In this document: positions 1,952 through 17,563 of the stretch, one piece after another
How the letters are laid out: every line of letters starts with the position of its first letter
Position numbering within the stretch: the first letter of the stretch is position 1
NCBI GenBank assembly: GCA_016194905.1
Contig: JACQAP010000019.1
Location: 248,001 to 312,000 of the forward strand
Source: Betaproteobacteria bacterium
GTDB lineage: Bacteria > Pseudomonadota > Gammaproteobacteria > Burkholderiales > JACQAP01
DNA length: 64,000 bases
Reading direction: 5' to 3'
The notes under the pieces: generated by a model
The model's database searches: none
The model's input: the letters and a program-made list of their open reading frames with translations, nothing else
What the model was told of the DNA's origin: nothing
Translations under genes and position numbers: made by a program

Positions 1952-4900
1952 ATGCAACCGATTCCCCCATTTGCCTCAACCGGCATCCGGCTTCGCGAAA
2001 TCCCCTACAACTACACGTCGTTCTCCGATCGCGAAATCGTGATTCGCCTGCTCGGCGCGCCGATGTGGCAGGTGCTGGACGAGTTGCGCAGCCAGCGTCG
2101 CACCGGACGTTCGGCACGCATGCTGTATGAAGTGCTCGGTGACATCTGGGTCGTCAACCGCAATCCCTACTTGCAAGACGACATGCTGGACAATCCCCGG
2201 CGCCGCGATGATTTGATCGAGGCGCTGCGCCACCGCCTACGCCAGATCGAACTGCGCCGCGGCGAAGGCGAAGAGGCCGCCAACGTGGCCGGCAAAGTCG
2301 CACAGTTGCTCGCGTCGGCGCACAAGGCGGTGGACGAATTCGAGCGCGATTTCGAGGATACGGCGAAGCTGCGGCGTAAAGTCCTGCGCCGGCTCACGCG
2401 TGTAACCCGGCGCGACAATATCGCTTTCGACGGCCTGGCGCGGGTGTCGCATGTGACGGACGCGACCGACTGGCGCGTCGAATATCCCTTTGTGGTGCTC
2501 CATCCCGACACCGAGGAAGAAGTGCAGCCTATCGTGCAGGCTTGCATCGAGCTCGGGCTTACCATCATTCCACGCGGCGGCGGCACCGGGTATACCGGCG
2601 GCGCGATACCGCTCGACAAACTTTCCGCGGTGATCAACACCGAGAAGCTGGAAGCGCTGGGTGCGGTGGAATTGATGCCATTGCCCGGCTTGGCGCAGCC
2701 GGTGGCGACCATTCATTGCGGCGCCGGTGTCGTGACCCGCAGGGTCATGGAAGCGGCGGAAGCCGCCGGCCGCATATTCGCGGTGGATCCGACTTCCGCG
2801 GATGCTTCCTGCATCGGCGGCAACGTCGCCATGAATGCCGGCGGCAAGAAAGCCGTGCTGTGGGGCACGGCCGTCGACAATTTGGCGTCATGGAAAATGG
2901 TGACGCCGGAGGCCGAGTGGATGCTGGTCGAGCGCATCGACCACAACCTTGGAAAAATCCACGACGCCGGAGTGGCGCGCTTTCGGATCACGCGCTTCGG
3001 CCGCGACGGCAGGATGCCGCGCGGTGAACCCGAGATCCTGGAAGTGCCGGGACGCCGCTTCCGCAAGGAAGGCCTCGGCAAGGACGTGACCGACAAATTT
3101 CTTGCGGGCCTGCCCGGCATTCAGAAGGAGGGTTGCGACGGCATCATCACGTCCGCGCGTTTCATCCTGCACAAGATGCCGGCGCACACGCGCACCGTCT
3201 GCCTGGAGTTTTACGGACAGGTCGGACATTCGGTGCCTTCGATCGTGGAAATCAAGGCTTATCTGGACCGCCGCCCCGGCGGTGCGATTCTCGCCGGCCT
3301 CGAGCATCTCGACGAACGCTATGTCAAAGCCGTCGGCTACGCCACCAAAGCCAAGCGCGGAGGCCGGCCGAAAATGGTATTGCTGGCCGATATCATCGGT
3401 GAAGACGACAAAGCGGTCGGCGAAGCCGCCTCCGCCGTGGTCAGAATCGCCAATGCCCGCGGCGGCGAGGGCTTCATCGCCGTCTCGACGGAAGCGCGCA
3501 AACAATTCTGGCTGGATCGATCCCGCACCGCCGCCATTGCCAAACATACCAATGCGTTCAAGATCAACGAGGACGTGGTCATCCCGCTCGACCGCCTCGG
3601 CGACTACTCCGACGGCATCGAGCGCATCAATATCGAACTGTCGCTCAGGAACAAGATTCGCCTGCTGGATGCGCTGGAGGAATTTTTCCAGGGCGAACTG
3701 CCCGTGCATCAGGAGGCCGAGAAGCTGGCGCAAGACGAGTTGCTCGGCGGCCGTGCGGCGAATGCAACCGATCTGGTGCGCACGACCCGCAACCGCTGGC
3801 AATGGCTGCTCGACAATCTCGACGCGCCGCTGACTGATTTTCAGAAATGGTTGGCCCAGACCGGGCAGGATGAGGGTGTTTCACCAGCCACCAGCCATTC
3901 ACTTCTATACCCCCTTGAGGGGTGCGAGCCACCAGCCACTGTTTTTCGCGCGCTTCAGAACCACAGCCTGCGCGTGTCATGGAAAAAGGAAGTCCGAGAG
4001 CTGCTGATGCAGATCTTCGATGGCCGCGCCTTCGATCCGATCCGTGCCGAGATCAATGCCATCCACAAGCGCGTGCTGAAGAGCCGGTTGTTCGTGGCCC
4101 TGCACATGCATGCCGGAGACGGCAATGTGCATACCAATATCCCGGTGAACTCCGACGACTACGCCATGCTGCACGAAGCCAATGTCGCCGTCGCACGCAT
4201 CATGAAAATGGCGCGAGCCCTGAACGGGGTGATCTCCGGCGAACATGGCATCGGGATCACCAAGCTGGATTATCTCGAATCTCATGAAATAGACGCCTTC
4301 GCCCGATACAAAAAGCGCGTGGATCCCGAAGGCCGTTTCAACAAGGGCAAATTGCTGCCCGGCGCCAATCTCGACAACGCCTACACGCCGAGCTTCAATC
4401 TGCTGGAGCTGGAGAGCCTGATCCTGGAGCAGAGCGCGATCGGTGAAATTTCCGATTCGATCAAGGACTGCCTGCGTTGCGGCAAGTGCAAGCCGGTGTG
4501 CTCGACCCACGTGCCGAGGGCGAACCTGCTGTACTCGCCGCGCAACAAGATCCTGGCCACGTCGCTGCTGATCGAGGCTTTTCTCTACGAAGAGCAGACC
4601 CGCCGCGGCGTGTCGCTCAAGCACTTCGACGAATTTTCCGACGTCGCCGATCACTGCACGGTCTGCCACAAATGCCTGAATCCCTGCCCGGTGGACATCG
4701 ACTTCGGCGATGTGTCGATCGCGATGCGCAATTTCCTGCGCCGTCAGGGCAAAAAGAAATTCAATCCGGGCACCGCCGCGTCGATGCTATTCCTGAACGC
4801 CACCGATCCGAACACCATCAAGGTCACGCGCAAGATAATGATCGAGTGGGGCTTCCGCGCGCAACGCCTGGCCTATCGCGCCGGGAAATCGCTCGGCCTG

Positions 4901-5875
4901 ATACAGGACCAGGTGAAGCATCCGCCGGCGACGCTTGGCAAGCCGTCGATCAAGGCGCAGGTGATCCACATCATCAACAAGCCGATGCCCGGGGGCTTGC
5001 CGAAGAAAACCTCGCGCGCTTTGCTGGACATCGAGGACACCCGCATGGTGCCGGTGATCCGCGACCCGAAAAAGGTGAACGAAGACTCGGACGCGGTGTT
5101 CTATTTCCCGGGATGCGGCAGCGAGCGCCTGTTCGGCCAGGTCGGGCTCGCCACCCAGGCGATGCTGTACGAAGTCGGCGCCGTCACCGTGCTGCCTCCA
5201 GGCTATCTGTGCTGCGGTTATCCGCAGACCTCCGCCGGGGAAGCCGAAAAGGGCCAGAAGATCAGCACCGACAATCGCGTGCTGTTCCACCGCGTCGCCA
5301 ATACGCTGAACTACCTCGACATCAAAACCGTGGTGGTGTCCTGCGGAACCTGCATGGACCAGTTGCAGAAATACGAATTCGACAAGATCTTCCCGGGCTG
5401 CCGGCTGCTCGACATTCATGAATACCTGCTGGAGAAAAACGTCCGTCTCGAAGGCGTGACGGGCGTGCGCTACATGTACCACGATCCCTGCCACACGCCG
5501 ATGAAGACTTATCAACCGGCAAAAGTCGTCAGCGCGCTGATGGGGTCGGATGTGAAGCTGAACGATCGCTGCTGCGGCGAATCCGGCACGCTGGCGGTCA
5601 CACGTCCCGACATTTCCACGCAGGTGCGCTTCCGCAAGCAGGAGGAAATGCAGAAGGCGGTGGCGGCCATTCGCGCACAGGGTAATGAAGAGCCGGTCAA
5701 GATCCTGACGTCCTGCCCGTCCTGCCTGCAGGGCCTGTCGCGCTACCGCGATGATACCGGCGTGCAGGCCGACTATATCGTCGTCGAGATCGCCAGACAT
5801 GTGCTCGGAGAGAACTGGATGGCCGACTATGTCGCAAAGGCGAATAACGGCGGCATCGAGCGCGTTCTACTGTAA
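1952..5875 (+). CDS. Giant FAD-binding / Fe-S oxidoreductase (DUF3683, GlcD-GlcF-like fusion)
   Basis: This 1307-residue protein fuses, in order, a DUF3683-type N-terminal region, an FAD-binding type 4 domain ([12 protein letters not shown] near residue 207), a C-terminal FAD-oxidase domain ([21 protein letters not shown]), a pair of ferredoxin-like cluster motifs ([11 protein letters not shown] near 840, CTVCHKC near 902) and two CCG cysteine-rich domains (near 1052 and 1177). This is the architecture of D-lactate or glycolate dehydrogenases joined to their Fe-S subunit, so a 2-hydroxy-acid dehydrogenase feeding the quinone pool is likely; the actual substrate is unknown. A repeat-derived insertion occupies about residues 642-665, between the two halves of the FAD-oxidase domain. 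The ATG at 1952 opens a long uninterrupted frame. Confidence 0.9.
3876..3943 (-). repeat. In-frame copy of the heptamer/hairpin repeat inside the DUF3683 gene
   Basis: Inside the reading frame lies TTTCACCAGCCACCAGCC, then a hairpin CCCCTTGAGGGG at 3911-3922, then GAGCCACCAGCCACTG. Read on the minus strand this is the same plan as the intergenic repeats (7-bp units, CCCC-loop-GGGG, TATA-like linker, 7-bp units). It adds roughly 23 codons without shifting the frame and the resulting residues ([18 protein letters not shown]) look like a low-constraint loop. Confidence 0.7.
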
Positions 5876-5897
5876 CGCATCTCGGCCACCCTGAATT

Positions 5898-6542
5898 ATG
5901 GTTGGACAGAGCGATCCGTGGTTCGAAGCATCGGATGTCATTCCGATGTTCCCGACGCTGGTCTGGAAGATTCAGGTCAAGGAAGGCGTGCGGGCAGCCA
6001 TAGCGGCAAAGATGCTCCCGGTGCTCGCGAAAATGGCACAGGACGCACCGAAACTGGCTTCCGGCCAGGGATGGCAATCGCAGCAAACGTTACATCGGCT
6101 CGACGAGTTGCAGGACCTCGTTTCCTGCGTCGACAAGGCGGTCAGGGGGGTTCTGAAGTTTCTGAGAATCGGTTATGACGCTTTTGAGATCACCGCTTGT
6201 TGGGCCACTGTTCTCGCCAAGGGTGCTGCCCACAGGATGCATAGCCACCCCAATAATTTTCTGAGCGGCATCTATTACCTTCGCACTTACCCGGGCGCGG
6301 ACACCATAAACCTTCATGATCCGAGAAATCAGACCGGCATCCTCAGGCCGCCGATCGTGGAACTGACGGGCGAGAACACAGATCAGGTCGTAGTCCGGGT
6401 GAGCAATGGCACGCTCCTGATCTTCCCGTCCTACCTGCAGCACTCCGTCGACGCCAATACGAGCGGGGAAGAAAGAATCAGTATCAGCTTCAACATCATG
6501 TTCTCTTCGTTCACGGAGAATCTCGCCAAGCCGCTATGGTAG
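5898..6542 (+). CDS. TIGR02466 family putative 2-oxoglutarate/Fe(II) dioxygenase
   Basis: The 214-residue protein carries the double-stranded beta-helix pattern of the TIGR02466 (2OG-Fe(II) oxygenase superfamily) proteins: MHSHPNNFLSGIYYL in the centre, with H-x-H/N providing metal ligands, and LLIFPSYLQHSVDAN with the distal histidine, followed by RISISFN. Substrates of this family are largely unknown; some members act in phage or secondary metabolism. It follows the DUF3683 gene by 22 bp and could be co-transcribed. It is the last ordinary gene before the integron's distal end. Confidence 0.8.
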   Translation: MVGQSDPWFEASDVIPMFPTLVWKIQVKEGVRAAIAAKMLPVLAKMAQDAPKLASGQGWQSQQTLHRLDELQDLVSCVDKAVRGVLKFLRIGYDAFEITACWATVLAKGAAHRMHSHPNNFLSGIYYLRTYPGADTINLHDPRNQTGILRPPIVELTGENTDQVVVRVSNGTLLIFPSYLQHSVDANTSGEERISISFNIMFSSFTENLAKPLW

Positions 6543-6559
6543 CCACCGCACGGCATAAC

Positions 6560-6783
6560 AAGCGGCTGGACCGCTTCACGCACGCTACGCGGCAGGCAAA
6601 AGGTCGAACCGCAGTGGAAGCTCTTCTGCCTGGTGCACAACATCGAGAAGCTCGCGCCTGCGAAATCTCGCCCCTGGGGGACCGCTGCCAATGCAAGGAA
6701 GAGAATCGCTGAAAAAGCTTTTTCTACCACCTCAAGGTTCGCGCTAAGCGGCGCGGCGGTTTTGAACGCGTCCGCTTGCGCGC
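6560..6783 (+). pseudogene. Transposase C-terminal remnant with degenerate attC-like hairpins
   Basis: In the frame beginning at 6600 the DNA reads KVEPQWKLFCLVHNIEKLA, which resembles the C-terminal end of IS1182-type DDE transposases; no upstream part of such a gene remains. Flanking it are GCATAAC plus the hairpin AAGCGG-CTGGA-CCGCTT (6553-6576) and, at about 6745-6776, AAGCGGCGCG with its partner CGCGTCCGCTT, both attC-like but without complete core sites. This appears to be the eroded far end of the cassette array. The transposase call depends on one 19-residue stretch. Confidence 0.5.
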
Positions 6784-7053
6784 TCACACCATCTTTCGCA
6801 ACTCGTCATTGATGCGTGTTTGGTAACCGCCGCCCATGGCCTTAAAAAAGGCGATAACGTCGGCATCAAGACGGGCGGACATTAATACTTTGGTTGGCGC
6901 TTTTTGCGGACCCCGCCCGCGCTTGAGTGCCGGCGGTCCAAGCATCTTCTCCGACCACGGAGGATTGTCCGGATCGGTTCGCTCATTTGAAGTAGTCTTT
7001 GGCGATTTCAAAGTATTAGACGGCGGCCGTACTGTGCATGCCACTGGCGTCAT
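6784..7053 (-). CDS. BrnA-type antitoxin, no BrnT partner seen
   Basis: The C-terminal half reads SARLDADVIAFFKAMGGGYQTRINDELRKMV, the ribbon-helix-helix pattern of BrnA antitoxins (partners of the RNase toxin BrnT). BrnT is normally encoded immediately upstream, but the upstream minus-strand sequence encodes a different, unrelated protein, so this looks like an orphan antitoxin in a cassette. The ATG at 7053 would overlap the preceding gene's stop at 7016; a TTG at 7011, just after that stop, would remove the poorly conserved N-terminal 14 residues and is a reasonable alternative. Confidence 0.7.
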   Translation of the reverse strand: MTPVACTVRPPSNTLKSPKTTSNERTDPDNPPWSEKMLGPPALKRGRGPQKAPTKVLMSARLDADVIAFFKAMGGGYQTRINDELRKMV

Positions 7054-7410
7054 ACAACACTGTGCGCTTTGCCTCGAATGCGGGCGACATCACTTCTATA
7101 TACCAACTTTGCGGAATCGATGGGAATGCGGCAGACAATGGACCAAAGAGATCGGGGAAACCGGCCCACTCTTCAGAGACCTGAACGGGCGCCTGACCTG
7201 AGCGGGATTCGAATAGCAGACAAATGCAGTCGGCGGTAAGGAGGTCGATTTTATAGGTCTGGATCCTTGAGACGTCCGCCCAGTGCACGGTGCGAATGAC
7301 ATCCTGGTCTTCGCATCGACGAGAGCAAACCCGTCATCCGTTACGCGGACGTTCGGTTCGACACGGGGTTTGCGACCGAAGAGCTGTTGGATGCGCGACC
7401 AGAGTGCCAT
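7016..7410 (-). pseudogene. Cassette gene of unknown function broken by one frameshift
   Basis: Two overlapping minus-strand frames join into one plausible protein. It starts at 7410 (MALWSRIQQLFGRKP...VTDDGFALVDAKT) and, after a single-base shift near 7300-7310, continues DVIRTVHWADVSRIQTYK and ends at 7016. Read through the shift the product would be about 130 residues of a small uncharacterised family with the pattern VTDDGF..VDA...I.W.DV..I.AYK.D. Either frame alone is implausible. The base shift may be genuine decay of an unused cassette or a sequencing error. Confidence 0.6.
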
Positions 7411-7420
7411 TTAGCCGCTA

Positions 7421-7463
7421 TATCAACGTCGCGCTCACCCGCGAGCGCCGCAGCAAGTTATGC
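7421..7463 (-). other. attC site (short) of the HicB-like cassette
   Basis: Core site GTTATGC (7457-7463) at the gene-proximal side and TATCAAC (7421-7427) at the far side flank the hairpin GCGCTC-ACCCGC-GAGCGC. The stop codon of the hicB-like gene (TAA at 7458-7460) is formed by the core site. The distal core is a weak match, so the exact end is uncertain. Confidence 0.6.
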
Positions 7464-7673
7464 GGCTTGTACTTCGACAATTTCGCTCGTCGAAGCAGGT
7501 GTAGGAATTGGCTGCCCCTCCTGCTTGAGGTCCTCAAGATGGAACTCGATGGCCTCCCGAATGAGCGAAAGAACCTCTTCTTTCGTTTCTCCAGCAGCGA
7601 TGCAGCCAGGAAGATCCGGAACATGGGCTCCGTAGGAAGAGGGGCCTTTTTCAACAACTACGAGGTATCGCAT
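7458..7673 (-). CDS. HicB-like antitoxin, no HicA partner seen
   Basis: The 71-residue product begins MRYLVVVEKGPSSYGAHVPDLPGC, the canonical partial RNase H fold of HicB antitoxins (HicB_lk family), and ends after SLIREAIEFHLEDLKQEG without a DNA-binding tail. HicB normally neutralises the RNA-binding toxin HicA, encoded next to it; no HicA-like frame is visible on either side within the cassette. Solitary HicB cassettes are known to occur in integrons, and an anti-addiction role is a possibility. The start at 7673 is fixed by the conserved first strand. Confidence 0.82.
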   Translation of the reverse strand: MRYLVVVEKGPSSYGAHVPDLPGCIAAGETKEEVLSLIREAIEFHLEDLKQEGQPIPTPASTSEIVEVQAA

Positions 7674-7694
7674 ATCGAATCGCGGCTCGTATCG

Positions 7695-7752
7695 CGTCTA
7701 ATTCTTGTGTCGATCGACTTCGGACTTTTTCTACAGCCTTGTGCCGTTGGGC
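7695..7752 (-). other. Possible degenerate attC of the 62-residue cassette
   Basis: GTTGGGC at 7746-7752 fits a core site after the stop of the 62-residue gene, and GTCTAAT at 7695-7701 could be an eroded partner 44 bp further left. The segment between them has the short palindrome GTCGATCGAC but not the long arms of the other sites. Position and spacing favour attC; sequence alone is weak. Confidence 0.35.
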
Positions 7753-7797
7753 GGCACCGCGGCTACAGATTCTACGAACAGGCTGCGCATGACTATG

Positions 7798-7986
7798 CTA
7801 TTTGTGTCCAGACCGAAATGCCCACACGCACAAGCTGCCAGCAACGACCATTGCAACCCAGGAAACCCACACTGGCACGTCGAAACCTGCGACTTGCACC
7901 GGCCATTGGTTCAGAGCCCGCACAGCTTGAACCACCGCTATCACGCCGAAGAGAACACCCGAAACGACGACATACTTACTCGGCAT
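7798..7986 (-). CDS. Small two-helix membrane protein (cassette)
   Basis: A 62-residue protein, MPSKYVVVSGVLFGVIAVVQ..., with two hydrophobic helices (about residues 4-24 and 38-57) joined by RALNQWPVQVAGFDVPVW. A strong ribosome binding site, AGGAGG, precedes the ATG by 8 bp, which supports real translation. Its layout is typical of the short hypothetical membrane proteins common in integron cassettes; no function can be assigned. Confidence 0.72.
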   Translation of the reverse strand: MPSKYVVVSGVLFGVIAVVQAVRALNQWPVQVAGFDVPVWVSWVAMVVAGSLCVWAFRSGHK

Positions 7987-8013
7987 TCTCGATCCTCCTA
8001 TTCAGAAAGTGAC

Positions 8014-8078
8014 GCCCAACGCCAAGTTGAGCCGCAGCAAGCATTTGCTTGCCGTCGGTCTCGAACTTGATGTTAGAT
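8014..8078 (-). other. attC site of the DUF4256 cassette
   Basis: GCCCAAC (8014-8020) and GTTAGAT (8072-8078) bound a 65-bp imperfect palindrome whose central arms are GCAAGCA and TGCTTGC, with AAGTT/AACTT inner sites. A second GTTAAAC at 8090-8096, which supplies the stop of the gene, could alternatively be the outer core site. Confidence 0.8.
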
Positions 8079-8090
8079 TTCGATCAAGAG

Positions 8091-8636
8091 TTAAACCTTG
8101 ATCCGACCGCGAAAACCTCTTGCGGCGTAGTACGATTCAGCACCGTTGTGATACACGAAAACATGATCATAGCGACGATCACAGAAGAGCGCACCACCAA
8201 GATCTCTTATCTTGGCTGGCGTATTCACCCAGCTCGAAGTTTTCCTGTCGAATTCTCCAAACTCTTGCAATTCTCGATATTGTTGTTCCGTGAGTATCTC
8301 AATACCTATCGAGGACGCCATTTCGATTGCGTTTCCACTTGGTTTGTTTTCTTTTCGTGAATCGAGAGCCTCGCGGTCATAACAAATGCTGCGTCGGCCT
8401 ATTGGACTTTCAGGTGAACAATCACAGAAAATGAACTCACTGGTCTTTTCATCATAACCAACGACATCCGGTTCGCCGCCGGTGCGTTCCATTTCATAGA
8501 GTGCTTGGATTTTTTCAGGACTAGCCTCCAATTTCGCTTGCATTGAGCTCCAGTCGATTCCTGTGTGACGACGCTTGTTTTTCGAGAACCGATCTTTGAG
8601 AGTCTTGATCAGCTCGTCAAGAAATGCTGCTTCCAT
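8091..8636 (-). CDS. DUF4256 family protein (cassette)
   Basis: The 181-residue product ends with ALFCDRRYDHVFVYHNGAE and SYYAARGFRG, the signature of DUF4256, and contains the matching EPDVVGYDEKTSEFIFCDCS block in the middle. The family's function is unknown. The ATG at 8636 is preferred over one 7 codons upstream because AGGGAG lies at proper spacing before it. The stop codon lies in a core-like GTTAAAC. The 188-base gap on its right leads to the IS-split attC. Confidence 0.82.
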   Translation of the reverse strand: MEAAFLDELIKTLKDRFSKNKRRHTGIDWSSMQAKLEASPEKIQALYEMERTGGEPDVVGYDEKTSEFIFCDCSPESPIGRRSICYDREALDSRKENKPSGNAIEMASSIGIEILTEQQYRELQEFGEFDRKTSSWVNTPAKIRDLGGALFCDRRYDHVFVYHNGAESYYAARGFRGRIKV

Positions 8637-8828
8637 TTCATTATCTCCCTTATGCAACTCGTTTACCGATCGTGTATCTTCAACTGTCTATCAATATTGC
8701 TGAATGCGTAAATCTAACGAATGAAAGGGACTTCCCCGTCCCGATAAAGCGGCGGAGAGGCTGCGCGGCATCGATCTGCCATGATGGTTGTTCGCGCAAA
8801 CATCAACTGTCTCGAAAGGGGAAGTCCA

Positions 8829-9842
8829 TGACGATTATCACTGTCGGTATCGATCTTGCCAAGAACGTGTTCTCCGTGCACGGCGTCGATGAGAATGGCA
8901 AGGTGGCGCTGCGGCGCACGGTGCGCCGTGACCAGTTGTTGGAGTTGATCGCCACGCTGCGCCCATGTGTTGTTGCGATGGAGGCCTGTTCGGGTGCACA
9001 CCACTGGGCGCGCCAGTTCGCAGCCTTGGGGCACACCCCGAAACTGATTGCCCCCAAGTTCGTCACGCCTTATCGCATGAGTGGCAAGCGCGGCAAGAAC
9101 GATGCTGCTGATGCGGCCGCCATCTGCGAAGCCGCCACCCGTCCGAAGATGCGTTTCGTCCCTCTCAAAACCGTCGATCAGCAGGGCACTCTGTGCGTGC
9201 ATCGGGTGCGTCAGGGCTTCATCGAGGAGCGCACTGCGACCATCAACCGCGTGCGCGGACTGCTCTGCGAATTCGGCATCGTGCTCCCGCAGAACGCCAA
9301 CACCGTGCGTCGCGAGGCTGCCGCGGCCCTGGAGGATTTGCCCGGCTGGGCGAATCGCGCCATCGGTGACTTGCTCAGCCATTTGCATGCGCTCGATCTG
9401 CGCATCGCCGAGTATGACGCCCACGTCAAGCTCAACGCACAAGCCGACGAACGCGCACGCAGACTCATGAGCACGCCCGGCATCGGCCCGACCCCCGCCA
9501 GTGCCCTGGCCGCGTCCATCGGGCAATGCCCATGACTTCAAAAACGGGAGGCAGCTCGCTGCCTGGCTCGGCCTGGTGCCCAGCCAGTACAGCACCGGCG
9601 GCAAACCCAGGTTGGGCAGCATCACCAAGGCGGGGGATGCCTACCTTCGAACCTTGTTGATCCTGGGCGCACGATCCGTTCTGGCCAACGCTCCCGGCAA
9701 GACCGATCGCATCAGCCGATGGGCGCTCGCTGTACAAGAGCGCACCGGCTACGGCAAGGCACTGGTTGCCATCGCCGCCAAGAACGCGCGCATGGCTTGG
9801 GCCATGCTCAGTAAAGGCGAGGCGTTCAGGTCGATGGCCTGA
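8829..9842 (+). pseudogene. IS110-family (IS1111 group) transposase, one frameshift
   Basis: The N-terminal part (MTIITVGIDLAKNVFSVHG...) has the RuvC-like DEDD catalytic domain of IS110 transposases, and the C-terminal part (GRQLAAWLGLVPSQYSTGG) has the serine-containing Tnp_IS116/IS110 domain. They are in different frames: the first ends at 9535 after AASIGQCP, and the continuation NAHDFKNG needs removal of one base near 9524. Intact it would be about 337 residues. GGGGAAGTCC immediately before the ATG is an inverted copy of the left end. The shift probably inactivates the enzyme unless translational frameshifting occurs. Confidence 0.88.
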
Positions 9843-10155
9843 GCCTCTCAACATCGCACCCGCCACGCTCGCCCGATAAGGAGCTCGTCGATGAGTTAGA
9901 AAGCGTTTCATACCGTTCACCGCGTCTGTCCATGTTGATGAGTCAAGGTTGGACCTGCGTGAGGTGTGCCTGATACAAGCCAAGGTGGACGCTACGGCGA
10001 TCCCGGCTAACGAATGAGGCCCTCACGCGCGTCTTTCATCAGGGTCCGCAGCCGATCGAACCGCTGCACCAAGACCGTTTGTAGAGCCTCAGTCCTTCAC
10101 CTTGCACACGCATCATCGACAGAAACCAGAAAGCAGCTTTGCAGACTTGACTATT
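9843..10155 (+). ncRNA. Candidate seekRNA/bridge RNA region of the left IS element
   Basis: This 313-base non-coding end follows the transposase. It contains CTAACGAATGA at 10007-10017, identical over 11 bases to the attC sequence at the left border of the insertion (8714-8724). In IS1111-type elements the guide RNA comes from the downstream end and carries short target-matching segments, so this is a candidate guide. RNA ends and fold were not determined. Confidence 0.5.
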
Positions 10156-10305
10156 GGAGAAGCCCTTGTAGTTTGACTTAAGCGGACTGCCGAAGGCAGG
10201 TCCGCTTGAATGATGGGATGGACTCCTCCCGCTGTTTGTGCGGCATCATTGTGCCAAGCTGAAACATGGGCATGGGTCAGCGTAACCAGACAGGAGGAAT
10301 CCAAA

Positions 10306-11373
10306 ATGAATGCTACTACCGTGGCGGTGGATCTGGCAAAGAACGTCTTCGAAGTCGCCGTGGCCGATTCTCACTGGAAGATCATCGAACGCGCCCGCCT
10401 TACGCGTTCGCAGTTCGAGCGCTGGTTCGATAATCGTGAGTGCGCCACGGTCGTCATGGAAGCCTGTGGCATCGCGCATCACTTTGCGCGCTGGCTCGGC
10501 GGCCTGGGCTTTACGGTCAAGCTGCTGCCCGCGCAGTACGTGCGTGCCTATGTGAAGCGCAACAAGACCGATGCAGCCGACGCGGCGGCGCTGCTGGAGG
10601 CCGTTCGTGCTGCCGACATCAAGCCGGTGGCGGTGAAGTCGATCGAGCAGCAGGCTCTCCAGGCGCTGCACCGCACGCGCGAAGCCTGGAAGAGCACGCG
10701 CACCCGGCGCATCAACACCCTGCGCGGCTTTTGCCGCGAGTTCGGATTGGTGGTGCCCGAGGGGGCGGCCACCGGCCTCGCACAGATGGCGCGTTATCTG
10801 GCCGACGAGCAGTCGGGATTGCCCGCGATGCTGCGTAGCCCCATGCGCCTGATGCTCGACGAGATCCGGCTCATGGAGGCGAGAATGGCGCAACTCGAAA
10901 CCCAGCTCGCCGACGTCGCTAAACACAGCCCCGCCTACCAGGTGCTGCTCACGGTGCCGGGCATCGGGCTGATCACCAGCACGGCCATGGTGGCCGCCGT
11001 GGGCAACCCGGCCAGCTTCGACTCGGGGCGGCGCTATGCGAGCTTTCTCGGGCTCACGCCGCGGGAATACTCTTCGGGCAATACGCGTTATCTGGGCCGC
11101 ATCTCCAAGCGCGGCGATCGCTATATCCGCACCCTGCTCACCCACGGGGCGAGGAGCGTGCTGCGCTCGGCTACCGTGGCGCATCGCGCCGGGCGCGAGA
11201 TCGACCGGTTGAAGCGTTGGGGGCTCGAGGTACAGGCGCGCACCAATCACAACAAGGCCGCGTGCGCGCTTGCCAACAAGTTGGCCCGCATCGCCTGGGC
11301 GGTGTGGGTCAAGCAGGAACGGTATCGGGGGCAGGCGCTGCCTGCATCTCAATCACCGCTGTGCAGTGTCTGA
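10306..11373 (+). CDS. IS1111-group transposase (IS110 family)
   Basis: The 355-residue enzyme starts MNATTVAVDLAKNVFEVAV after AGGAGG and contains the DEDD RuvC-like domain (first Asp near residue 9; NKTDAADAAALLEA near 87) and a C-terminal domain with VPGIGLITSTAMVAAVG and FLGLTPREYSSGNTRYLG, carrying the catalytic serine region. These recombinases act with an element-encoded guide RNA and leave no target duplication. The gene is undamaged, in contrast with its neighbour to the left, and the two transposases are clearly different in sequence, so they arrived independently. Confidence 0.93.
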   Translation: MNATTVAVDLAKNVFEVAVADSHWKIIERARLTRSQFERWFDNRECATVVMEACGIAHHFARWLGGLGFTVKLLPAQYVRAYVKRNKTDAADAAALLEAVRAADIKPVAVKSIEQQALQALHRTREAWKSTRTRRINTLRGFCREFGLVVPEGAATGLAQMARYLADEQSGLPAMLRSPMRLMLDEIRLMEARMAQLETQLADVAKHSPAYQVLLTVPGIGLITSTAMVAAVGNPASFDSGRRYASFLGLTPREYSSGNTRYLGRISKRGDRYIRTLLTHGARSVLRSATVAHRAGREIDRLKRWGLEVQARTNHNKAACALANKLARIAWAVWVKQERYRGQALPASQSPLCSV

Positions 11374-11618
11374 GAATGAGTAGGAATCTTTTTCCGCGGT
11401 TTGCGTAAGAGAGACGACGCCCATCATGGCAACAACGGTCGGACCGGCACGGGAGAAAGCCGATAACTCTGCTGATCGAAGCTTGATCGCTCAGAACGTG
11501 TGGCTTCCCGTGCGCAGATTCCATGTCGGCACGAGCCCTCAGAGGTTCACTTCAGATGCCGGATAGTCGACTGCAACCGATTCCCGCGTTGACAACCCTA
11601 CGGCGTTTCTCTTGTTTC
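11374..11618 (+). ncRNA. Candidate seekRNA/bridge RNA region of the right IS element
   Basis: The 245 bases between the transposase stop and the right inverted repeat encode no protein. CCCATCAT at 11420-11427 is complementary to ATGATGGG at the left border of the insertion (10210-10217), and AACCCT at 11594-11599 is complementary to AGGGTT at the right border (11640-11645). Two short guides, one per target half, are what the seekRNA model predicts; 6-8 base matches can also arise by chance. Confidence 0.5.
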
Positions 11619-11649
11619 GCGGGAGGAGTCCATATAGGAAGGGTTAGGC

Positions 11650-12609
11650 CTATCCCGCACGAACGTACAGCCCTTCGAAAGTTGAAGGAATCTCAGCTAA
11701 TTCTGCTTCGAGATACGGCACGCTCGAGATCGACAAGAGCCACTCGAGATACACATCTTCGGTGAAGTAGGCGTCGACTGCCTGAAGTGCCCGTGAGCGT
11801 GAATCCGCGGACAGGAGAGACGGCACTGCAGGTGCTTCGGCCGCATCCGCCGCGGCTAGCTCCGCCCTCAGGCAGTGGGACCACTCCCAACCGACGGAAG
11901 GCCTAGCTTCGACAAGGAACTCGGATGGCCACTGGATACGTCCGTTGAGGATGCCATGCGCGCCCACCAGCCAAGCCAAGACCTGGGCCCGCCAATGTGG
12001 GGAAGGAATCGCCAGAACCGACTGCAGCCAACCCTGAAGTAGTGGGCTAGGCAAGTACTTCAGGCAGAAGAACATTGACGCACTGAAGTCGCCGCTGGCG
12101 TCCCACCAGCACCAGACGCGGTTTGGGTTGTTGTTCGATCGATGGAGCAGCGTTCCCAAGACGATGTCTGTGCCGTTCCAGCACCTCTCGTCCATCATGC
12201 AGCGGCCAAGGGTAACGAGCGCGTCGTCAAGAAACTGGCGGTAGGGTGGTGAGTGCACGCCGTTCGGATACAGCGCCACGAAGCCAGTGATGAGTGACTC
12301 AAGAAGCGAGCTAACGAAGTGCTCGTGACCGCGAGAGAGTAGCTGGCCCAGCATGTAGTGATACCAGTCGTGCCACTCTTGCATCGGGCCGAAGGAACTG
12401 GTGCCGGATGCGATCTCCTGAAGTGGCGCCTGGAGCTCCCGAGCAGCTAGCGACGCAAGATCGCCTTGTAGTTCGCAAAAGAGGCGTCGCTCTTCGCCCA
12501 TGAACCATGCCTCACCCATCGGCTCCTTAGGGCGCCTGAAGTGGCCTCGGAGCCGCGCGAGTGCGGCGGCATCGATTCCATCTCCTGGTTGCCAGACAAA
12601 CCGATTCAC
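11650..12609 (-). CDS. Hypothetical protein, 319 residues (cassette)
   Basis: No family is recognised. The sequence is tryptophan-rich (MQEWHDWYHYMLGQLLSRG; CWWDASGDFSASMFFCLKYL) and mainly helical, without signal peptide or clear membrane segment. The frame is open further upstream to an ATG at 12702, but those 31 codons run through the attC of the neighbouring cassette, so the first start inside this cassette, GTG at 12609 (VNRFVWQPGDG), is chosen. The stop TAG directly precedes core site GTTAGGC, the cassette's own attC now split by two IS elements. Confidence 0.65.
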   Translation of the reverse strand: MNRFVWQPGDGIDAAALARLRGHFRRPKEPMGEAWFMGEERRLFCELQGDLASLAARELQAPLQEIASGTSSFGPMQEWHDWYHYMLGQLLSRGHEHFVSSLLESLITGFVALYPNGVHSPPYRQFLDDALVTLGRCMMDERCWNGTDIVLGTLLHRSNNNPNRVWCWWDASGDFSASMFFCLKYLPSPLLQGWLQSVLAIPSPHWRAQVLAWLVGAHGILNGRIQWPSEFLVEARPSVGWEWSHCLRAELAAADAAEAPAVPSLLSADSRSRALQAVDAYFTEDVYLEWLLSISSVPYLEAELAEIPSTFEGLYVRAG

Positions 12610-12617
12610 TTGATGGG

Positions 12618-12680
12618 GCCTAACGTCAAAGCTCAGAGGCGCGCAGGTTATCGCGCGTCCCTTGGAGCGATCGGTTAGGA
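12618..12680 (-). other. attC site of the DUF4034 cassette
   Basis: GCCTAAC (12618-12624) and GTTAGGA (12674-12680) bound a 63-bp imperfect palindrome with central arms GGCGCGC and GCGCGTCC. It is easily missed because open frames of both neighbouring genes read into it. The TAA stop of the DUF4034-like gene is part of the right core site. Confidence 0.75.
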
Positions 12681-13676
12681 CGACAAAGCCCAATCTCGAC
12701 ATCTGGTGAACACTTCGATGCCGTCTGGTTCCCAGACGATTAACGCGGGACTACCGCCAATCATTTTCATCAATTCTACTGATTTCTCCTTATCTCTTGC
12801 GAGACATGCAAAATGCGCATAGATATTCGCGTTCCACGGGTCGGGGTAACGCCTCAGCAAGTCCTCAAATCCAATCTTCATTCTTGGCCAGGAGGCCTTT
12901 GATTGACTAAACAATTCGTGCTTATACTGAAATTGGGACGCCGCCGCGTAGAACCTCGCGTAGAGTTCCATGCCTCTTTTCTCTTGCGTTTTTGTGACTA
13001 CGTAAGATACGAAATGTTCTAGCTGATCGGCATCTCCGTGCCATTTCGGAAATAGATAATCCAGAACCGCGTAATAGATTCTGTCGTCATCGACGTTCTT
13101 ACTAAGAGCTTCCTCAATAAAGGGGTTGATCCTCTCTCGCTTCCAACCCAAGTGTTTGGCAATGTGTATCTTAATGGCATACCAGCCCGTATCTGCGGAA
13201 GCGATACTCTCGTTCTTGTTGAGGTAATCCATAGCGATATTTTCATATCGAAAGAATGGTTCCCAAGCCTCCTCGGGAACCGTATTGGCGTAACCTTTTC
13301 CTCTAAAGAAAAACGCATGAGCTGATAGCGCGCGGGCATACGCAATTCGTGCCGCTGGTGATTTCGGATAAGCCCCTATCCAATTGAGCACTTTCTTTTC
13401 CATCCGATCACAATATTTCTCGTCTTCGTTTGGTGGTGGAGTGAGCGCCAAATTTAACCCATCATCAAACAAGCTAATCTTCTGGGCGCCACTAGGCGTT
13501 CGTTTGTCGTTTTTGCCATAGAGAATTGAAAGCCTTTCAAGCTCAGGGAAGTTTTCCGATAACAATGCATTTCGTGCTTGATTGCGGATCGAGTCTCTTA
13601 TCGAGAGTTCGTCCGCATAAGCAGTTCGGAAAGTAAATAGCAGAAATAGGACCAACAAATAGCTATGACGTTTCAT
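12675..13676 (-). CDS. Secreted DUF4034-like protein (cassette)
   Basis: A 333-residue protein with a signal peptide (MKRHSYLLVLFLLFTFRTAYA, cleavage after AYA) and, from about residue 30, a pattern resembling DUF4034: an early helix with LLSENFPELERLSILYGKN, then RTPSGAQKISLFDDGL, then long helices with RIAYARALSAHAFFFRGKGY. Function of the family is unknown; a periplasmic location is likely. The gene is visibly richer in A and T than the host genes, a sign of separate origin. Its stop is built from the attC core site. Confidence 0.75.
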   Translation of the reverse strand: MKRHSYLLVLFLLFTFRTAYADELSIRDSIRNQARNALLSENFPELERLSILYGKNDKRTPSGAQKISLFDDGLNLALTPPPNEDEKYCDRMEKKVLNWIGAYPKSPAARIAYARALSAHAFFFRGKGYANTVPEEAWEPFFRYENIAMDYLNKNESIASADTGWYAIKIHIAKHLGWKRERINPFIEEALSKNVDDDRIYYAVLDYLFPKWHGDADQLEHFVSYVVTKTQEKRGMELYARFYAAASQFQYKHELFSQSKASWPRMKIGFEDLLRRYPDPWNANIYAHFACLARDKEKSVELMKMIGGSPALIVWEPDGIEVFTRCRDWALSS

Positions 13677-13683
13677 GGCGTCT

Positions 13684-13746
13684 TTCTAACGTTCTCAATC
13701 AGCCGCCGGCCGCTCTTGGCCGGTCGGCTGCATTAATTTGTTAGGC
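13684..13746 (-). other. attC site
   Basis: TTCTAAC (13684-13690) and GTTAGGC (13740-13746) bound a 63-bp imperfect palindrome with strong central arms CAGCCGCCGGCC and GGCCGGTCGGCTG around GCTCTT. The right core site supplies the stop codon of the 185-residue gene. Confidence 0.9.
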
Positions 13747-14298
13747 GAACCTTTGAGAGTGAGCGCCACTTTCGCCTTCGCCAAACAGGCACCAGAAATA
13801 TTCTGGGCTTTGTTTCTGCGGAACGTTCCGGCCCTCATGCGGCAAGACCGCGCTGATGTCTGCGGTCGTCTTGCCAGTGGGCAAATGGACAAAGTCGACT
13901 GCGTTCCCGCTGACATATGCCTGCCTGCTGCCATCTGAAAAGAGAAGTGTGAACAAGCAATATCCCATGCCGGACTCGCCAGCGCGATATAGCTCATTAG
14001 CCAGTCTGACAGGAAGCCGTAGCGGACTTTCGGCGATTGACACCAAATCTTCTATCCGGACATGGTGCTTGCCCTTGTCATCCTGAGGCCATACGCCCCA
14101 GACATCGATGTATGACTGGGCATTCATCACATAAACGCACAGAAGCGTACGCCCGTCCTTCAACGTGACGCTGCAAGGGTAGTACTCCAGCTTTCCATTG
14201 ACACTCGGAGCAATCGTTTCCCATGCGGCCAGCAGACTACCGGTCAAGGCAGCGTAAGAGCGCTTTCCTGGGACGTACGCCTTGAGCTGCTGAGTCAT
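13741..14298 (-). CDS. Hypothetical protein, 185 residues (cassette)
   Basis: Unknown family. The product is soluble, with a beta-rich middle (YYPCSVTLKDGRTLLCVYVM; IDVWGVWPQDDKGKHHVRIEDL) and a glycine-rich region LSFSDG-like near 120; no signal peptide. The start ATG at 14298 lies only about 6 bp from the neighbouring attC core site, so there is no room for a normal ribosome binding site and translation may depend on the preceding cassette or on integron promoter read-through. The last codons, QRFA, and the stop are already attC sequence. Confidence 0.68.
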   Translation of the reverse strand: MTQQLKAYVPGKRSYAALTGSLLAAWETIAPSVNGKLEYYPCSVTLKDGRTLLCVYVMNAQSYIDVWGVWPQDDKGKHHVRIEDLVSIAESPLRLPVRLANELYRAGESGMGYCLFTLLFSDGSRQAYVSGNAVDFVHLPTGKTTADISAVLPHEGRNVPQKQSPEYFWCLFGEGESGAHSQRFA

Positions 14299-14303
14299 GG
14301 GTC

Positions 14304-14375
14304 GTCTAACGCCAGCGCTCAGCCGCGGGCCGAGCCCACAGGACGAGGCCCGTCGGCTGGTGCGCCTGGTTGGGT
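14304..14375 (-). other. attC site
   Basis: GTCTAAC (14304-14310) and GTTGGGT (14369-14375) bound a 72-bp imperfect palindrome with arms GCCGCGGGCC-GAG and ACGAGGCCCGTCGGC. The last 17-18 codons of the membrane-protein cassette gene run through it. Confidence 0.85.
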
Positions 14376-14849: not shown

Positions 14850-14904
14850 ACCCAACGTCATGGTCAGCGGCGCCGATAGGCGTCCGCTGCACCTAAAGTT
14901 AGGC
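14850..14904 (-). other. attC site
   Basis: ACCCAAC (14850-14856) and GTTAGGC (14898-14904) bound a 55-bp imperfect palindrome with arms GCGGCGCC and GGCGTCCGC. It lies 9 bp past the stop of the HEPN-like gene. Confidence 0.85.
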
Positions 14905-14913
14905 ACCGGCTGC

Positions 14914-15531
14914 TCAACCCTGCCACCTTTCGTACTCGGAAGCGATGTCGTCTTGATGTGAAAAGTCCAGATAGGCGCACTCAAAGAAATTCTCCAAGCC
15001 TTCCATGACTTCGCGCAGATTCGCCAGATCAATGCCCCTGTCACCGAACTTAAATGGTGCTTCATCGCGACCCGTAGCAAACCTAAATCCATCTGACTTT
15101 TGATCAGCCTCATGCATCTCAGCAACAAGCTTTTGCGCGGCACTCAGGCCCAACGTTTCGCCCCTAGACCGCTCGTTAGCAATGCACATGAATCTTTCCC
15201 AGAGGATGTTGAGTTCGTGCGTGTACCTCGGTGAATACTCTTTCCCTTTGCCGAATTCATCAATCAGACGTTTCAAGAAAAGTTCGATCGATTGCCTGTA
15301 GCAGAAGAGCGCTGCGTAGATTATGTTCGCTCGATCAACAACATCAGTTGCTGCCTGATCGACTAGGAGGTCACCGGCGCGCTTGTAGCCCATAGGCAGG
15401 CGATAGAAACGTTCGCCTGGGTCGCAAACTACGTGTGCATCGTATGCCCAAGCAGACTCGACAAAGAGACGATCACCATCCTTTGGCCAAGGCGCGTCGA
15501 GGTCTTCTGCTTCTGGCACGTTGTCATTCAT
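14914..15531 (-). CDS. HEPN-like protein, 205 residues (cassette)
   Basis: The helical centre ANIIYAALFCYRQSIELFLK RLI followed by THELNILWERF resembles the helix pair of HEPN-type domains, in which an Arg and a downstream His lie across the dimer interface; the exact R-x4-6-H motif is not evident, so RNase activity is not claimed. The rest (MNDNVPEAEDLDAPWPKDG at the N-terminus) is not recognised. The ATG at 15531 is preferred over a TTG two codons upstream. A cassette-borne stress, defence or toxin function would fit, but this is inference. Confidence 0.55.
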   Translation of the reverse strand: MNDNVPEAEDLDAPWPKDGDRLFVESAWAYDAHVVCDPGERFYRLPMGYKRAGDLLVDQAATDVVDRANIIYAALFCYRQSIELFLKRLIDEFGKGKEYSPRYTHELNILWERFMCIANERSRGETLGLSAAQKLVAEMHEADQKSDGFRFATGRDEAPFKFGDRGIDLANLREVMEGLENFFECAYLDFSHQDDIASEYERWQG

Positions 15532-15549
15532 GGTCAATGTAGTGGCGGT

Positions 15550-15615
15550 GCCTAACGAACAAGCTGTGCGGCCGAACGCAGCAGGCGGACGGTCCGAACC
15601 AGCGAAAAGTTAGCC
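15550..15615 (-). other. attC site
   Basis: GCCTAAC (15550-15556) and GTTAGCC (15609-15615) bound a 66-bp imperfect palindrome; the inner arms include CAAGCTGTGCGGCCG and CGGACGGTCCG-like segments. It lies 9 bp past the stop of the 144-residue gene. Confidence 0.8.
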
Positions 15616-15624
15616 ACTGCGTTC

Positions 15625-16059
15625 TCAAGGAAACAGTGCAACGATATTGTCATCGAAGCGGAAGGTGTTGAGAACCCATCCCTTGTTGCTTCTATAGAAG
15701 TAAAACATCCATCGCATTGCATGCTTGTCGAATCGGTGAATATGGGTGATGCGAAGCAGGCTCTCGCCTACCTTTTCTTCGCGCACGAACTCGGTTCCGA
15801 GGCTTGCGCCGAATCGTTGAGCGATCATGGACTGTTGGAGCTTGAACTGACCAAAGGTCGCATCGACTTCGGCTTCAGGCACGATCGTGAAAGGTTTTAG
15901 CAGTTTGATGGCCGCGTCCAGGTCGTTCACGCCAACTTTGGCCATGATCTTGTCCGTAATGGCTCGCGCTTCTTTTGGCGTAGGGACTGTCTCAAATGCG
16001 TAATTGCTTAAAGCAACAGTCGCTAGGAATGCTGCGAATAGACTACGCACAAGGTACAT
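15625..16059 (-). CDS. Exported hypothetical protein, 144 residues (cassette)
   Basis: MYLVRSLFAAFLATVALSNYA looks like a signal peptide; the mature part has an NTF2-like flavour, with helices KEARAITDKIMAKVG and DLDAAIKLLKPF followed by strands (TEFVREEKVGESLLRIT; MRWMFYFYRSNKGWVLNTF) and a C-terminal FRFDDNIVALFP. No catalytic residues are recognisable. The ribosome binding site GAGGAG precedes ATG 16059 by 7 bp. A periplasmic location is inferred. Confidence 0.68.
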   Translation of the reverse strand: MYLVRSLFAAFLATVALSNYAFETVPTPKEARAITDKIMAKVGVNDLDAAIKLLKPFTIVPEAEVDATFGQFKLQQSMIAQRFGASLGTEFVREEKVGESLLRITHIHRFDKHAMRWMFYFYRSNKGWVLNTFRFDDNIVALFP

Positions 16060-16076: not shown

Positions 16077-16140
16077 GGCTAACGAATTAGCTCAGCGACG
16101 CGGCGCTTTTTGCCGCGTCCGCTGAAGCGCTGGGTTGGGC
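16077..16140 (-). other. attC site of the first cassette
   Basis: GGCTAAC (16077-16083) and GTTGGGC (16134-16140) bound a 64-bp imperfect palindrome: CAGCGACGCGGCGC pairs with GCCGCGTCCGCTG across TTTTT. This is the clearest site in the array and a good template for the others. Confidence 0.93.
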
Positions 16141-16180: not shown

Positions 16181-16426
16181 CTAACCGCGACCCATAACGT
16201 CATTAAGTAAGTGCAGCCGCGCCCGTTCCCGCAGAGAAAGTAACAATTTTTTCTCCACTCCTTCAACGGCCAACAGTTCTTGCAATGGGATGTAGGCCAC
16301 TTCCTCAATGATGGTCAGTCCCGCTACAACCAACGCAATTGCTACTTGTTCGTTAATGCCGAGCACGCGCATAAACATTTCGACGATAGAACGATCTGGT
16401 TCGTCCATTTCGGCCACTATGTTCAT
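16181..16426 (-). CDS. Free-standing NusA C-terminal acidic-repeat-like domain (first cassette)
   Basis: The 81-residue product reads IVEMFMRVLGINEQVAIALV, then a short turn and EEVAYIPLQELLAVEGVEKK, then LRERARLHLL. This is the helix-hairpin-helix acidic repeat of NusA (F..L.I.E..A..LV..G....EE.AY.P..ELL.IEG......LRERA), where in E. coli it contacts RNA polymerase alpha C-terminal domain and lambda N. Here only one repeat exists, without NusA N-terminal, S1 or KH domains. The frame is open upstream, but the ATG at 16426 begins where similarity begins. As the attI-proximal cassette it should be the best expressed one. Confidence 0.72.
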   Translation of the reverse strand: MNIVAEMDEPDRSIVEMFMRVLGINEQVAIALVVAGLTIIEEVAYIPLQELLAVEGVEKKLLLSLRERARLHLLNDVMGRG

Positions 16427-16576
16427 GCAATGCCGTCCTCCGATGTCAGGCCCAACTAGAAGTAGCAATCCCATTGACGGGATATTTTGCGTCAACTTGA
16501 CGGATAATCTGGCGGGGCGCATGATAACTACTGGATATATCAACAGTCCTCATCCCGGGAAACCTCCCATTAGGTC
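16427..16576 (-). promoter_or_regulatory. attI region between the first cassette and intI
   Basis: The insertion point should be a GTTRRRY-like site on the minus strand; GTTGATA (complement of 16538-16544) is the best placed candidate, and a GTTATCA at about 16524-16530 is another. GTTGATAT is also the distal core of the last-but-one attC at 7421. Promoters for the cassettes and for intI should lie here or within intI, but no clear -35/-10 pair could be identified. Confidence 0.4.
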
Positions 16577-17563
16577 ATGAACGCGCCCGATGCCACCGGA
16601 CCGAAGAAAAGCCTACTCTTGGACCGTGTCCGGGACAAGATCCGCCTGAAGCATTACAGCATCCGGACGGAATCGGCCTATGTCGATTGGGTACGCCGGT
16701 TCGTGGTGTTTCACCACCGTCGCCACCCGCGCGAACTCGGTCCCGAGCACGTGGAGGCATTCCTTTCCCACCTTGCCGTGCAGCGCAACGTAGCTGCCTC
16801 AACCCAGAACCAGGCCAAAAGTGCCTTGTTGTTTCTCTACAAGGAGGTGCTCGGCTCGGAACTGCCCTGGCTGGATAACGTGGAAAACGCCAAGCGGCCT
16901 CAACGCCTGCCTGTGGTGCTTAGCCGCACCGAAGTCGATGCGGTACTCGGCAGGATGCATGGCACCAATGGCCTGATTGCGCGGCTGCTGTACGGCTCGG
17001 GTTTGCGGATCATGGAGGCGGTCAGGCTACGGGTCAAGGATCTCGATTTGGAGAGTTGCGAAATCCTGGTCCGCGACGGTAAAGGTGCCAAGGACCGGGT
17101 GACGATGTTGCCGTCCAGTCTGGTCGATCCACTGCGTGCCCATCTGGTGCTCGTGCGCGAACTGCATGCTCAGGACTTGGCCGCAGGACTGCCCGGGGTT
17201 TATCTGCCGTATGCTCTGGATCGCAAGTATCCGAATGCTCCCCGGGAGTGGGCCTGGCAGTATGTGTTCCCGTCCGATCGTCTTTCCACCGACCCGCGAT
17301 CGGGCCTGCGGCGCCGGCATCACGTCGATGAACAGAATGTCCAGCGCGCGATGCGCCAGGCGCTGCGGGACGCAGGCGTGGCAAAACCCGCCACGCCGCA
17401 CACCCTGCGATACTCTTTCGCCACGCACCTGCTCCAGTCCGGCTACGACATTAGGACCGTGCAGGAACTGCTGGGCCACTCGGATGTTTCGACGACGATG
17501 ATCTACACGCATGTGTTGAATCGCGGTGGCCGGGGAGTGGTGAGCCCACTCGATGCGCGTTGA
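16577..17563 (+). CDS. intI: Integron integrase IntI (tyrosine recombinase)
   Basis: The 328-residue enzyme has the SAM-like N-terminal core-binding domain and the catalytic residues Arg144, Lys171 region, His275, Arg278, His301 and nucleophile Tyr310. The family-specific extra segment is present at about 205-233 ([16 protein letters not shown], then WQYVFPS), which distinguishes IntI from XerC/D. It recombines folded single-stranded attC sites with attI. It reads away from the cassettes, and its 3' end nearly touches the HIT gene. The array lies upstream of intI in the usual inverted layout. The gene looks intact. Confidence 0.96.

Follow-up and report, generated by a model that had tools for sequence, protein, structure and literature searches.

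The closest described counterparts of the protein studied here are the C-terminal repeats of NusA. In E. coli, the first of these, AR1, binds phage N, whereas AR2, through its terminal W490-F491 pair, is the repeat bound by the alpha CTD, NusG, SuhB and phage Q (PMC7171158). Work from 2025 reports a contact between IF2 domain I and KH2-AR1, and E. coli stays viable without the C-terminal repeats (PMC12297416). The closest described genetic setting is that of the sedentary chromosomal integrons and their cassettes. We know of no core transcription factor domain that has been described as a circulating gene cassette.

The locus described here lies in a 64,000-nucleotide stretch of DNA from a betaproteobacterium, hereafter called the window. 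Like the cassettes of sedentary chromosomal integrons, its cassette 1 carries a single ORF with self-matching attC R boxes and stands first after attI, next to a divergent, SOS-boxed intI; unlike them, it is predicted to encode a core transcription factor domain severed from the rest of the protein, a product for which our literature search found no counterpart. The same search, with subscription papers outside its scope, yielded no description of a NusA-AR1 gene cassette, in agreement with the initial annotation of this DNA, which knew of none. Both the fold and the kind of mobile unit are known; their combination is new.

A Stand-Alone Domain of the NusA AR1 Type

The gene and its putative ribosome-binding site are located as follows.

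16181..16426, minus strand: cassette-1 ORF (ATG at 16426, stop at 16181), predicted from profile, PDB and fold matches to encode an 81-aa stand-alone HhH domain of the NusA AR1 type
16437..16441, minus strand: putative Shine-Dalgarno sequence GGAGG, about 10 nt 5' of the cassette-1 ATG, sequence GGAGGACGGCATTGCATG

In a profile search, the cassette-1 protein matched TIGR01954 (nusA_Cterm_rpt) with E=1.1e-11 and 44.6 bits, slightly below the curated cut-off of 48.15 bits, which the relative L050 exceeds (55.5 bits). Judged by its sequence, homology to the NusA repeat is clear, although the protein stays below the equivalog line of that profile. All PDB sequence matches down to E ~1e-9 were to NusA, and always to the AR1 stretch (E. 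coli residues ~353-416). AlphaFold, given a 13-row alignment, modelled the protein with a pLDDT of 86, and the best structural matches of the model by Foldseek and VIA-align were to NusA AR1 (1u9l). The 1u9l structure, an AR1-phage N complex, aligned over 70 residues with Z 12.0 and an rmsd of 1.4, followed by 1wcl, also NusA AR1, with Z 10.6; these matches indicate the AR1 helix-hairpin-helix fold. The AR2 structure 6ib8 scored lower (Z 7.5), and generic HhH proteins (RadA, Rad51) ranked next, below NusA AR1. For a divergent relative, L042, the predicted helix order was identical (pLDDT 94).

No NusA core (NTD, S1, KH1, KH2) surrounds the domain, which makes up the whole 81-aa product, and the C-terminus, LLNDVMGRG, lacks the terminal Trp-Phe pair of AR2. 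The model thus depicts a small protein that consists of one domain, folded like NusA AR1 and cut free from NusA. The initial annotation had described a stand-alone NusA C-terminal HhH repeat without the RNA-binding and polymerase-binding core, and had proposed a comparison of predicted structure with AR1 and AR2; the profile and fold matches above, and the presence of a full-length host nusA on a separate contig, agree with that description. Its label of "acidic-repeat domain" holds for the fold, which is specifically that of AR1, but the domain is not strongly acidic.

Compared with NusA AR1, the cassette-1 protein shares, besides the fold, ~33-43% identity and the core EEVAYxPxxEL ... R..AR, but it is detached from NTD-S1-KH1-KH2 and AR2, carries an extra short N-terminal segment, lacks the acidic surface and is encoded on a gene cassette. 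With NusA AR2 (1wcn, 6ib8) it has the HhH fold in common; the match is weaker, and it is without the W490-F491-type pair for the alpha CTD, NusG, SuhB and Q.

Integron Setting of the Gene

The integrase gene, the recombination sites and the other cassettes of the window are arranged as follows.

16577..17563, plus strand: intI, full-length integron integrase (328 aa), divergently oriented to the cassettes (TIGR02249, E=7.8e-144, 478.8 bits against a cut-off of 265; 314/315 positions)
16529..16548, no strand assigned: LexA (SOS) box TACTGGATATATCAACAGTC directly before intI (16/20 consensus matches; runner-up in the 64-kb window, 12/20)
16450..16456, minus strand: attI x cassette-1 junction G^TTGGGC, complementing R'' GCCCAAC of attC1
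16077..16140, minus strand: attC1 of the NusA-AR1 cassette, GCCCAAC ... GTTAGCC, hairpin (R boxes; fold z -3.3)
15625..16059, minus strand: cassette-2 ORF (from the ORF list), 144 aa, no assigned family
15550..15615, minus strand: attC2, GGCTAAC ... GTTAGGC (R boxes)
14914..15537, minus strand: cassette-3 ORF (from the ORF list), 207 aa, no assigned family
14850..14904, minus strand: attC3, GCCTAAC ... GTTGGGT (R boxes; fold z -4.2)
14304..14375, minus strand: attC4, ACCCAAC ... GTTAGAC (R boxes)
13741..14298, minus strand: cassette-5 ORF (from the ORF list), 185 aa, no assigned family
13684..13746, minus strand: attC5, GCCTAAC ... GTTAGAA (R boxes; fold z -7.3)
12675..13676, minus strand: cassette-6 ORF (from the ORF list), 333 aa, no assigned family
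12618..12682, minus strand: attC6-like site, TCCTAAC ... GTTAGGC (R boxes)

The R'' box of attC1, GCCCAAC, is the exact complement of the 5' end of cassette 1 itself, and the same rule is followed in cassettes 2, 3 and 4. At least six attC-type sites were found in the window, reaching ~12.6 kb, with another attC-like R'' box near 11.65 kb. Because a loose end-pairing scan gave a background of 9 hits in 40 kb of control DNA, these calls rest on manually identified self-complementary R boxes and on folding; since a cassette has its R' in common with the one that follows, an over-strict R-box rule overlooks attC sites. A family search of the other cassette ORFs scanned returned no clear family. 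The AR1 gene is flanked by recombination sites with R'' complementarity and an attC hairpin, and intI lies beside attI and the array. From this arrangement, it appears to be the first cassette of a working-looking chromosomal integron, and the strong LexA box suggests SOS control of the integrase. The presence of the gene in several arrays (L016, G337, L024, L049) leads us to infer that IntI excises and integrates the cassette. A mobile cassette in the attI-proximal position, as had been proposed, therefore fits the G^TTGGGC junction, attC1 and the intact intI.

Two IS110-family transposase genes (8624-9842 and 10210-11373, plus strand) abut the distal end of the array; attC sites are a frequent target of IS110/IS1111 elements. 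Beyond them, a DUF4256 protein (8091-8657, minus strand, E=2.1e-89) is encoded, possibly by a former cassette or a chromosomal gene.

Members and Distribution of the Stand-Alone Family

Seven intact stand-alone copies and one broken one (G337) were found, nearly all in one betaproteobacterial order. The relatives of the window copy come from a betaproteobacterial MAG (L024, 60%), G118 (L049), G253 (L050), G025 (L016), Acidovorax sp. sic0104 (L042) and a provirus contig (L045). In a tree from an alignment of 70-80 residues (76 columns), with long branches for L042, L045 and L016, the seven intact stand-alones fell on one side of a branch and 53 NusA AR1s on the opposite side, with support of 93/92, slightly under the starred level, and presence in 96% of bootstrap trees. 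These data point to a single old and rare family of AR1-like proteins, freed from NusA long ago.

A stand-alone gene was carried by 5 of 399 genomes in a sample of the order, the genome of the window included, and, at E<=1e-21, by 1 of 398 in a sample of the Acidovorax family. The phylum sample (319 genomes, E<=1e-24) held none except that of the window, and the class sample (369 genomes) no other among the matches listed. The same loci came back when the order was sampled around the Acidovorax genome, which places the host of the window in the order of Acidovorax.

At least two other copies lie within attC arrays (G025, G337), and two lie beside decayed intI genes (L024, L049). In G025, where the array has ~48 attC sites, the copy (L016/L076) stands at about cassette position 23. 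The G337 copy (L127, G337:C28, 5520-5717) is an attC-flanked cassette with an apparent frameshift that leaves just the C-terminal half in frame; its shifted N-terminal half appears to be an assembly error or a sign of a pseudogene. The suggested search for relatives elsewhere found them in other integrons (G025, G337), whereas none was seen in plasmid or annotated phage records. L050 (1408-1728, minus strand) has a longer C-terminal tail and lies directly downstream of a sulfurtransferase gene, with an apparent decayed attC (GCCCAGC...GTCGGGT) in its flank.

Surface of the Domain and Possible Partners

The stand-alone proteins keep one face of NusA AR1 and have shed much of the rest. G36, E42, V43, A44, P47, E50, R66, A69 and R70 (window numbering) are invariant among them and nearly so in NusA, and they retain the EEVAYxPxxEL ... 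R..AR face, with R..AR in the last helix. In contrast, the acidic positions conserved in NusA (23, 25, 27, 35, 55, 60 and 64) are variable or lost. The core net charge is -2 for the cassette-1 protein and -4 to -5 for the other stand-alones, against -9 to -16 for 53 NusA AR1s, with no overlap, so that the strongly acidic surface of NusA AR1 is missing. The hairpin glycine of the HhH motif is lost in most of them, and the net charge remains negative. Since acidity is mostly lost, the binding surface would not be a faithful copy of that of NusA AR1, and the conserved positions are in part structural.

The initial annotation had the NusA repeat touching both alpha and phage N, which merged the two repeats: AR1 does bind N, but alpha binds AR2, and the cassette-1 product is AR1-like and has no WF pair. 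The idea of a decoy of the NusA surface loses weight, since most acidic residues are gone from the family.

As the shared AR1 positions are kept while the acidic remainder is shed, we consider that the protein most likely binds a partner contacted by NusA AR1, or a paralogue of such a partner. Our preferred reading, to which we assign a probability of roughly 0.4, is that the stand-alone protein is an AR1-type protein-protein interaction module that acts in trans and competes with NusA for a shared partner. Candidates for that partner are IF2 domain I, an N-type antiterminator of a phage, some other host factor, or a paralogue of such a contact of NusA AR1. Being occupied without delivery to RNA polymerase, the partner would leave a NusA-dependent process dampened or redirected, and the timing and amount of the protein would be set by integron position and the SOS-controlled integrase. 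The AR1 fold, the age of the family, purifying selection, the cassette nature of the gene, the shared conserved positions and the AR1 partners reported in papers are consistent with this model. Against it stand the largely lost acidity, the small number of alignment columns, the three long branches and the group support slightly under the starred level. Strong expression, which had been thought probable, is possible only where the cassette is first in its array, but the G025 copy is about the 23rd.

The main rival holds that the AR1 fold was a mere starting scaffold and that the protein has acquired a new protein or nucleic-acid partner outside NusA biology, as is frequent for HhH domains. We regard this as quite possible, though short of an even chance. 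That the acidic surface and the seven NusA acidic positions are lost while the core is retained, the long branches of L042, L045 and L016, and the rank of RadA and Rad51 just behind NusA in the fold comparison would all suit it. However, EEVAYxPxxEL and R..AR are as invariant as in NusA AR1, beyond what a bare scaffold would need, and the loss of the hairpin glycine in most members together with a charge that is still negative disfavours DNA binding.

A broader extension of the trans-acting competitor model seems unlikely. In it, free NusA-AR1 mimics encoded by a mobile, SOS-shuffled cassette family would act in trans to control transcription antitermination or the coupling of transcription to translation, for example by sequestering N-type phage antiterminators or IF2, and would serve as portable regulators or in phage defence.

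Phage and Defence

More specifically, free AR1 might be an anti-phage decoy that blocks the early genes of temperate phages by sequestering their N-type antiterminators. Chromosomal integrons are reported as phage-defence biobanks (PMC12409362, with reference to Darracq 2025, Kieffer 2025 and Getz), and the anti-phage cassettes mentioned there (Darracq 2025, Kieffer 2025) are, like the present one, small accessory proteins of chromosomal integrons; unlike those, the cassette-1 product matches no defence family. The decoy reading is possible, and attractive because integrons hold defence genes, but it is unsupported. The repeat bound by N in E. coli is AR1 (PMC7171158), the window copy is first beside attI, and the relative L045 lies in a provirus-rich contig; yet PADLOC gave no match to a defence family, known or candidate, for the cassette-1 protein or for the neighbouring cassette proteins tested, no stand-alone was seen in annotated phage records or plasmid records, the acidic surface is lost, and no host-phage protein resembling N was identified. 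We therefore rate it as distinctly improbable, and the interference with phage suggested at first found no link.

Among 50,697 annotated phage records, no stand-alone AR1 was seen; a match in Pseudomonas phage Y6 comes from an unverified record and is a complete nusA (499 aa), which we read as host contamination. None was seen in 72,556 plasmid records either, where the annotated matches were nusA, identities were at most 43% and many records were chromosome-sized. PHROGs gave no match for four stand-alones and a weak match to an unknown family for L045, and a second scan of viral contigs with a larger profile again returned L045 alone. On the contig of L045 (G780, 4850-12300, an IMG/VR provirus), two phage head/tail modules are separated by 5 kb of unknown small genes that hold the 69-aa AR1 relative; the integrase gene neighbours tRNA-Cys/tRNA-Gly and lon. 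A search of this contig for a left att repeat and for attC sites found neither. L045 is not called a phage gene, because it lies in the 7-12 kb stretch between the tail genes and the second portal module, with no left att repeat.

Selection, Retention and Origin

Pairwise dN/dS was 0.145 between cassette 1 and L024 and 0.142 between cassette 1 and L049, both ratios being rough since dS of these pairs (1.8-1.9) is near saturation, and 0.155 between L024 and L049 (dS 1.1). In pairs among the window, L024 and L049, substitutions were concentrated at third positions in significant excess. With this excess, a dN/dS of ~0.15 marks the protein as functional and under purifying selection. N-terminal intI remnants lie beside the AR1 gene at L024 2153-2620 and L077 7312-7431, in two species of one genus, and in G118 and L024 the attC sites are poorly preserved or unrecognisable with the AR1 ORF intact. 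In the L024/L077 lineage, the integron thus seems to have decayed and the AR1 cassette to have stayed. Both intI-remnant loci are near a dinG-like helicase gene.

These observations largely refute the view that an integron captured a drifting, non-functional nusA fragment. Most cassettes have no known function and the G337 copy is apparently frameshifted, as this view would allow, but the low dN/dS over three lineages, the third-position excess, the intact ORF beside decayed intI in L024 and L049, and the conserved RBS and start in the window and L024 make it very improbable. To a recent local duplication of the host nusA C-terminus, raised at the outset as a case to check, we give practically no credence despite the homology of the repeats: the host nusA is full length (499 aa) on a different contig (C27), its AR1 is 41% identical to the cassette-1 protein against 60-63% for L024 and L049, and a clade of cassette 1 with host NusA is rejected (p-AU 0.012).

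Significance

As the family shows, the NusA AR1 module functions well enough by itself to be retained under selection, even outliving its integron. The stand-alone AR1 also offers a small, expressible protein for asking what AR1 does in bacteria, a question worth asking because its reported partners in the literature searched are only phage N and, recently, IF2, and because E. coli can do without the C-terminal repeats. If the broader extension of the trans-acting model is true, part of a core elongation factor would have been split off and put to new use in portable regulation or in defence against phages.
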